From Desulfurococcus sp. (GTDB lineage Archaea; Thermoproteota; Thermoprotei_A; Sulfolobales; Desulfurococcaceae), in assembly GCA_026626905.1 (NCBI GenBank), contig JAPNUX010000003.1, positions 1 to 64,000 on the forward strand: 64,000 nucleotides of DNA, written 5' to 3'. Position 1 is the stretch's first letter, and each line of letters opens with the position of its first letter. This document shows, one piece after another, positions 102 to 4,980 of this stretch. The notes beneath the pieces were generated by a model. That model did not search any database. It was not told where the DNA came from and saw nothing but the letters and a program-made list of their open reading frames with translations. Both the position numbers and the translations under genes were made by a program.

Positions 102-788
102 ATGGTAGTAAACAGGCTAGCAGAGAACTCGGGAGGCTACTGCTTCATGGAGCGCTCAGCGAATACAGGTTTAAGGAACAGCGGATTAAAGATGTCACTT
201 ACTACTCTCGTTCTCGTGGTGGAGGCTGGCTCAGCAGGCTTTTATGTGACGGTGACTCGAAGCTTAGCTCCGATTTTCATGGCGTTCCTCGGATTCAGTA
301 TCACAGGTATCATGCTTGTGACATCTATTGCTTACCTGATTGCTCTAGCTGTAATCCTGCTTTTACGTTGGCATGGTGTTCGAAGAATCCGCAACATGCT
401 GCTAGTTTCACATGGTGTTGAACGAGTAGCGTGGGGGCTGCTCCCTTTAACCGCTGTACTCGACTGGAGGATGCTTGTAGCCGTGTATGCTCTTGCAGTA
501 AGCTTTGCAGCTATAACAGGCCTGCTGATTGGTGTCGTCGTCTACAATGTTCCCGGCGAGAATGGGCCTCGTCGTTTAATTGCCTACCGTAATGCAGCGT
601 TTACCGCGACTAGTATTATTGGTAGTCTAACAAGTATTATTGTACTTGCGGCGATGAGCAGTTACTTCAAGTACATCTACCTCTACACTCTAGCAGCTAT
701 TATTGGATTACTCGCTACAATTCTGCTAGCTTTAGTAAAATTACCGGTAGCTGATGAAGCCTCCGCAATTAATAGCACAGTGACTTAG
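102..788 (+). pseudogene. MFS transporter, N-terminal half, ended by an in-frame TAG
   Basis: This encodes about six hydrophobic segments followed by a hydrophilic stretch, as in the first half of a 12-helix major facilitator. It has a short basic loop after the second segment (GVRRIR) and a PGENGPRRLIAYRNAAF loop, both typical of MFS_1 proteins. The frame stops at TAG 786-788 and then stays open in the same frame through 1517, so one base change separates it from a full transporter of about 470 residues. The start may be ATG 102 or a later Met near codon 31, just before the first helix. The substrate cannot be told. The halves could also be made separately or by readthrough; I call it a pseudogene with moderate confidence. 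Confidence 0.6.
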
Positions 789-1517
789 AGTGATGTAGAA
801 GTCAAGTCTAGTGTAGTCTTCACCTTCATGGTTTTATTCATGGCTTCTAGCGCGGTGCTTAACGTTGAATGGGGACCCTACATAATGCATGAGCTTAGAG
901 CACCCGACTACACTGCAGCCCTGCTGGGTTTCACAGGCATGATTACTAGTATTATAGCTAACTTATACTGGCTTAGAGTAGACTACTCAGCCTATAAACG
1001 CTCACTGCTAATCCTACCCCTGGTACCAGTAGCTGTAGTACTTGTAAGAAGCCTTCCACTTCACTTCGGGCTTAACGCGATATACGCGTTCGCAGCGACT
1101 GGGGCATCTCTACTAGCCAGCTTCCTCTACGCTGATATGTCTAGGAAACTGGGAGCATTTACATCATCACTTATGACGACAATAGCTTTTCTCTCATCGC
1201 AGGCGGTAGGATTGCTTACAGCACTAGCAGTTTTTCAGGCGGGTACCTGGGCTACATTCCTCTCTGCAACCGCATATGCTACTCTAGCAGTCTTTACAGC
1301 TTTCTACTCGCTGCCAGAGGTAGCTGTAGTGCCGCGGGATCAAGCGTTACTCCACGCTAGGAGGCTGCATCTAGTTGCTAGTTCCACGTTCACTGTGGTA
1401 GTTGTGGCTTCAAGGCGAACAATTATAGTAGTCTTGAGAACACTGGCATTCACGCTTGCTCTACTCATACTCTTATTCCTCTACAGGCTTCTCTACCTGC
1501 TATTAATACCCATGTAA
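789..1517 (+). pseudogene. MFS transporter, C-terminal half, same frame after the TAG
   Basis: The same reading frame continues after TAG 786-788 with no further stop until 1515-1517. Codons 789-827 already encode the linker and the start of the seventh helix (KSSVVFTFMVLFMASSAVL), so an internal start at ATG 828 would cut that helix in two. This argues that the two parts were one gene. About six hydrophobic segments follow, with a late hydrophobic C-terminus after a basic loop near codon 180. No clear ribosome-binding site precedes ATG 828. A sequencing error, a recent amber mutation or programmed readthrough would all give this picture. Confidence 0.6.
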
Positions 1518-2930: not shown

Positions 2931-3110
2931 AATTGAAGGGTATTAATGATAAATGCTGGTAGTAGTCTAGGATCCCCGTATAGCTAGATCAAGCTTCTCT
3001 ATAATACCTATATTGAAATGTATTAATTTAAGTGGTGTTAGTTCTTAAAAGTTTTCCGCCCACATCAATTATAACCCCTGCCTTAAATGATTACTTTGAA
3101 GGGGTGCTAC

Positions 3111-4055
3111 ATGACCTCTCAACTCAGATACAGGATATTAGTAGCCAGTCATATACACGAGAAGGCTATAGAAGCGTTAAAAGCTAGTGGATTCGATGTA
3201 GCTGTGAAAGAGGAGCCGAGTGAGGAGGAGCTAGCTTCAATTATCAAAGGATTCCATGCTCTAATAGTCCGCAGTAAACCACTGGTTACCCGGAGAGTAA
3301 TAGAGGAAGCTGACTCCCTTAGAGTTATAGCTAGAGCCGGGGTGGGAGTAGATAACATTGATGTCGAGGCAGCGAGGAGCCGGGGTATAGAGGTTATTAC
3401 GGCTCCTGAGGCTTCAACTGTAAGTGTAGCCGAGCTGACAGTTGGATTAATGATCTCGGTTGCCAGAAAAATAGCTTTTAGCGATAGACACATGAGGAGA
3501 GGGGAGTGGCCTAAGAAGCAGGCCATAGGGGTAGAACTCTACGGTAAAACCCTCGGGGTGGTAGGGGCAGGGAGAATCGGGTCAACTGTAGCAAGAATAT
3601 GCAAGCTAGGCTTTAACATGAACATTCTCTATTATAATCTCTCTAGGAGGGAAGACCTCGAGAAAGAACTTAATGCAAAGTTTGTTGACTTGGAAACACT
3701 CTTAAGGGAGTCAGATGTTGTAACAATACATGTACCTCTAACACCTGAAACACACCACTTAATCAACGAGGAGAGATTAAAACTCATGAAGAAGACTGCC
3801 ATCATAATTAATACCTCCAGGGGGCAAGTCATCGATACCAAAGCGCTGGTAAAAGCATTAAAGGAAGGGTGGATTGCAGGAGCAGGATTAGACGTATACG
3901 AGGAGGAACCGCTTCCAGAAAACCACCCGTTACTAGAGCTTGAGAATGTTGTTTTAACACCACACATAGGTGCTAGCACCGTAGAGGCTCAGGAGAGAGC
4001 CGGCTTAGAGGTTGCCAGTAAGATAATCGAGTACTTTAAGAGCCGGGTGGTGTAG
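3111..4055 (+). CDS. serA: D-3-phosphoglycerate dehydrogenase
   Basis: A short-form 2-hydroxyacid dehydrogenase of 314 residues, without the C-terminal ACT domain of bacterial SerA. It shows the Rossmann motif GAGRIGS near residue 150, the NTSRG segment with the catalytic Arg near 235, Glu in the DVYEEEP segment near 260, and catalytic His in LTPHIGAST near 285. [11 protein letters not shown] and [10 protein letters not shown] are family signatures. It oxidises 3-phosphoglycerate to phosphohydroxypyruvate, the first step of serine synthesis. I prefer ATG 3111 over the in-frame ATG 3087 because GGGGTG lies just before it. It ends 4 bases before serK, so the two are probably cotranscribed. Confidence 0.9.
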
Positions 4056-4059
4056 GCGG

Positions 4060-4827
4060 GTGAGTAGTGAAAGCGGCAGGGTGATAATAAAGCTACCTAA
4101 GACCAGCATACCCTACAAGTATATTGAACCTGTACTCATAGACATCGATAACCTAGTCATCCACGAGGAGATCGTGGAGGCAAGGTTAAAAGAGCTTACG
4201 GAGAAGATTAGAAGAGAGAATGCTGTTGACATGCCTATAGTGGTAGCACCGATCCCGGGGACCAGCAAGTACCTCATAGTAGACGGGCATCATAGATGGG
4301 CTGCTGTAAAAGCCCTTGGCTACAGGAGGATCCCCTGTATAGTTATCGACTACTACAGCCCTGATGTAAAGCTGAAAACATGGCTACCAGGTATTATCGG
4401 GGACGTGAAGCCTGTTCTCGAAGAAGTAGCTAGAAGGGGGTTGAAGACATCGACCTGCGATTACACTATAGATAGCGTGTTAGAACTGGATCCAGGGCTC
4501 CTCGAGAAATCATCCTTCATAGTGCTTGGAAGAGAGCTCTGTGTAGCAATTAATGGTGGAATTGAGGGACAAAAAATAGTTTCCCGAGTGCTCAGTGATC
4601 TAAATCTAAAGGATCTCGTAACCTTAGTATACTACGGTGAACTTGTAGAAGCGGTTGAAGACTTGAAGACAGGCTGGCTATCCTACCTATTCGTGCGTAA
4701 AGCTCTCACCAAGGAGGATGTCATGAACTACGTTAAGAACGGAGGAGTCTATGCTCCTAAGACCACCAGGCACATCCTACCATTCTACCCTGCTAAAACG
4801 TACACGCCGCTAGATAAGCTCCAATAA
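4060..4827 (+). CDS. serK: SerK-like free serine kinase (ParB/sulfiredoxin-fold domain)
   Basis: A 255-residue protein with an N-terminal ParB/Srx-like nucleotide-binding domain, including [14 protein letters not shown] at about residues 74-87, and a C-terminal part like archaeal SerK. In Thermococcus, SerK phosphorylates free L-serine with ADP to give O-phosphoserine. GTG 4060 follows the serA stop by 4 bases. Sharing a transcript with serA supports a role in serine/phosphoserine metabolism, not chromosome partitioning. The function is inferred from domain and context; I did not check individual catalytic residues by alignment. Confidence 0.75.
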
Positions 4828-4877: not shown

Positions 4878-4980
4878 AGCCGCCGGCGGGATTTGAACCC
4901 GCGTCCACCGGCTTTCTCAACGGGCCTTACCAACCAGCCGCTTACAAGGCCGGCGCTCCACCGGGCTGAGCTACGGCGGC
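4878..4980 (-). tRNA. tRNA-Thr (anticodon TGT) with a 29-nt intron
   Basis: Read on the minus strand: acceptor GCCGCCG pairs with CGGCGGC, D-stem GCTC/GAGC, anticodon stem CCGGC/GCCGG, T-stem GCGGG/CCCGC with loop TTCAAAT, discriminator T. The anticodon loop CTTGTAA gives TGT, hence Thr (ACA codons). Between tRNA positions 37 and 38 there is a 29-base insert at 4914-4942, the canonical archaeal site for a splicing-endonuclease intron. Mature length is 74 including the discriminator, and CCA is not encoded. A TATA-like TTTTTAAGCC lies on the minus strand at 5013-5022. Confidence 0.93.

Follow-up and report, generated by a model that had tools for sequence, protein, structure and literature searches.

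An MFS-fold transporter gene interrupted by a probable recent nonsense mutation in a Desulfurococcus genome

Analysis of a 64,000-nucleotide stretch of Desulfurococcus sp. DNA (hereafter, the window) reveals a transporter gene whose reading frame is interrupted by a single in-frame TAG. Its intact homologues are uninterrupted. The TAG most likely represents a recent nonsense mutation in an ordinary transporter gene, and we infer both the loss of function of the transporter and its recency. Among the options raised in a preliminary description of this DNA, recent loss of function is the best supported, given the single lesion and the uninterrupted relatives.

The open reading frame scan of the window identified the TAG at 786-788 (plus strand) as the sole stop in the frame 102-1514, with 228 open codons before it and 242 after it. 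The terminal stop is the TAA at 1515-1517. The frame thus corresponds to the preliminary description, in which one amber codon was followed by a stop-free continuation in the same frame. The gene had also been taken to begin at 102; the frame is open from there, but the start codon is probably ATG 147 or 192, as placed by homology and by a GGGAGG motif ahead of 147 (~129-134). Based on homology and the predicted structure, the first half of the transporter (helices 1-6) is assigned to 147-788 of the plus strand. The second half (helices 7-12 and one extra C-terminal helix) follows as an open frame at 789-1517 of the same strand. In the read-through product, numbered from the Met at 192, the premature stop is residue 199.

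The structure of this read-through product was predicted with AlphaFold2 from a 16-row alignment (pLDDT 81, pTM 0.80). In the model, helix 6 spans residues 159-181 and helix 7 residues 200-233, separated by a linker (182-199) with a low-confidence core; the premature stop is located at the end of this linker. The arrangement of six plus six helices around the TAG proposed earlier is reproduced as far as the split after helix 6 is concerned, but the model adds an extra helix at the C-terminus. Two six-helix bundles with the MFS fold can be distinguished in the predicted structure, and its best Foldseek matches in the PDB are the MFS transporters NorA (8tth) and MdfA (4zow), with E-values of about 2e-7 to 7e-7, TM scores of 0.60-0.64 by query length and 13-15% identity. 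Neither the halves nor the read-through protein nor the intact relatives scored above the curated cut-off of any Pfam or NCBIfam model. Because no curated MFS profile matches and the predicted fold is the sole basis of the placement, it is worded here as "MFS-fold". As modelled, the interrupted gene encodes a 12-13-helix MFS-fold transporter, which is a single polypeptide in the relatives.

The first half alone matches 24/61 genomes and the second half 21/61 (own genome included), and these are mostly the same uninterrupted relatives. A family profile search of 40 genomes recovered an intact full-length copy in 13 and a heavily broken one in G006, with fragments or weak matches only in a few others; the transporter is missing from many genomes of the family. 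In a named collection that was scanned separately, 16/16 loci are uninterrupted (Desulfurococcales, Pyrodictiaceae, Staphylothermus sp. and other Thermoprotei), although several of these belong to the same genomes as the 13 family copies. The intact relatives are single frames of about 440-490 codons, all with a sense codon where the TAG stands here. The homologue alignment proposed in the preliminary description shows Glu in this column in 10/15 compared relatives, with Ser, Thr, Ile, Pro or Gly in the others and a stop in none (0/15).

The copy in G006 (L058, G006:C17, about 3040-4378) contains several stops and frame breaks, and the open frame of its neighbouring partner gene remains. Judged from its sequence, this decay is an independent loss of the same transporter, a loss that would then recur in the family. 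With absent or decayed copies in the genus-mates, other family genomes and G006, the transporter gene appears dispensable in this lineage.

In most relatives, the MFS gene is followed directly by the partner gene, which encodes a conserved small membrane protein; the two frequently overlap or abut. Here, the partner is found at 1561-2157 of the plus strand, preceded by its own Shine-Dalgarno-like sequence (GAGGTGG, ~1548). We infer a start at GTG 1561, with GTG 1543 as an alternative. In a relative, the partner bears a faint similarity to PF05552, the conserved helix found in mechanosensitive channels, in a match that falls short of the threshold (E 0.0017).

Both genes of the pair are absent from the two genus-mates. 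There, two unrelated genes adjoin the SIS-domain gene at the site occupied here by the MFS pair (L081 4139-5092, L082 6133-7414), and in G002 these genes lie between the SIS-domain gene and the QueT operon. The two genes have no Pfam match (tested in L081), and one of them was searched for in G000 and not found. Comparison of the SIS-adjacent sites looks like a locus replacement. In its first half, the MFS gene has a synonymous codon use that differs from that of every same-length stretch of the other window genes (0/258); that of the partner is marginal (5%) and that of the second half normal. The absence of the MFS gene and its partner from the genus-mates, the unrelated genes there and the codon use together suggest that this divergent two-gene unit may have been horizontally acquired. 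Upstream of the transporter, on contig C7, a divergent QueT-type ECF transporter operon is encoded. Elsewhere in the window, an intron-containing tRNA-Thr(TGT) was located at 4878-4980 (minus strand), which had been missed by the default tRNA scan.

The MFS gene breaks 77/150 near-invariant positions. Specific erosion of this gene was rejected, as the partner, which is intact, has diverged to the same degree (42/79); the equal divergence of the two therefore points to a divergent lineage and not to decay. In a test for faster change after the stop, invariant positions were broken at 14/31 versus 3/19, with p = 0.06 by Fisher's test; L144, a relative used as control, trends similarly. The branch leading to the MFS gene measures about 1.9 substitutions per site and carries only one stop. 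As a counterpoint to loss, a long branch with one stop is also expected under continued full-length translation. The 726 bases that follow the stop contain no second lesion, and for this reason the age of the lesion is limited. The neutral bound is below ~0.13 substitutions per site when stops alone are considered, and ~0.03 when indels are counted at an assumed rate of one tenth of the substitution rate.

Alternatively, the TAG could be an artefact of sequencing or assembly, or the assembler could have picked a variant carried by a minority strain, with the gene intact in most cells. We regard this as unlikely. The genome (1.27 Mb, 8 contigs) has several contig ends that overlap or share exactly 141 bases, a pattern typical of short-read de Bruijn assembly. 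The window starts at such a break, where the gene has its 5' end: it is the beginning of contig C3, and its positions 1-141 are exactly the reverse complement of the start of contig C7, the only other place in the genome where this sequence occurs. Because the contig breaks here, the graph branched at the 5' end of the transporter, which lends this reading some support. The stop, however, lies 645 bases beyond the shared stretch, and is consistent with a plain substitution, no homopolymer being involved. Consensus errors are rare in well-covered short-read contigs, which also counts against an error.

Partial decoding of the TAG, whether by an unusual tRNA or by a near-cognate one, to give a full-length transporter is very improbable. 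No anticodon CUA was present among the 44 tRNA genes found in the genome, a list that lacks recognised tRNAs for Trp, Cys and His and has two genes called Tyr, so that it is perhaps incomplete or partly misnamed. No PylS was detected above the cut-off; the best PylS_Cterm match, at 30.8 bits versus 178, presumably stems from an ordinary aminoacyl-tRNA synthetase. A pyrrolysine or suppressor tRNA was rejected, PylS and, among the 44 tRNA genes, a CUA tRNA having both been searched for and not found. No RNA structure was predicted 3' of the TAG (z = 0.29), which is also the commonest normal stop in the window, ending 27/55 long frames, and is shared by no relative. The readthrough option of the preliminary description is thereby disfavoured, even though the frame is otherwise intact and archaea sometimes express interrupted genes (PMC8211752). 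According to the same review, selenocysteine and pyrrolysine are the only cases in which archaeal stop readthrough has been demonstrated (PMC8211752). It is likewise very improbable that a Desulfurococcales archaeon free of pyrrolysine machinery translates UAG at a useful rate here, as regulated readthrough of an MFS-fold protein; if shown, this would fall outside both of these kinds (PMC8211752).

Functional fission, in which six-helix halves are made separately and assemble in the membrane, is likewise hardly credible: the stop lies exactly in the inter-half linker and reassembly of split membrane proteins is possible (PMC3464245), but there is no ATG, GTG or TTG in 789-827, the first possible restart (codon 14 after the stop, Met 213, window 828) lies within helix 7 without a Shine-Dalgarno-like sequence just 5' of it, and the same split occurs in none of the 13 intact family copies and 16 collection loci. 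An internal restart before the second half was rejected for lack of a start codon. The model, with helix 7 beginning at residue 200, agrees with the earlier observation that this helix starts before the first internal Met and, together with the absence of split relatives, with the claim that the second half was not built as a protein in its own right. The window contains 11 in-frame stops with at least 100 open codons on each side, including TAG 786. The distance from stop to next start codon is 14 codons at TAG 786 and 1-7 codons in 9/10 of the others. The remaining one (63386, minus strand), with 46 codons from first start to stop, lies in a frame that looks like noise.

A nonsense mutation is the plainest account, since no CUA tRNA, PylS, structure or restart was found and the gene is often missing and decays in G006. 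One codon in the poorly conserved inter-half linker would have become TAG, in this genome or in most cells of the sampled population. Translation would end once helix 6 has been made; as the second half lacks a start of its own, no working transporter would result. The event would be young, as nothing else is broken. The partner, keeping its own start and Shine-Dalgarno-like sequence, should still be translatable. For annotation, the two open frames are one interrupted gene, to be joined, and not two proteins. The transporter family, which has an MFS fold, no Pfam or NCBIfam profile and a small membrane protein as its conserved partner, is uncharacterised and occurs only patchily in this archaeal family. 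Beyond annotation, the significance is small.

In comparison with known systems, an in-frame UAG within a coding frame is common to this gene and to pyrrolysine/UAG recoding, which differs by its PylS, CUA tRNA and conserved UAG, none of them found here; neither is the product a methylamine methyltransferase. With NorA and MdfA, the predicted read-through product shares the MFS fold, but at 13-15% identity, with one extra C-terminal helix and with no Pfam or NCBIfam match. The gene also resembles young single-lesion prokaryotic transporter pseudogenes: although the lesion here is known from one assembled genome sequence alone, it has the same one stop with the rest intact, the same patchy presence and a decayed related copy.
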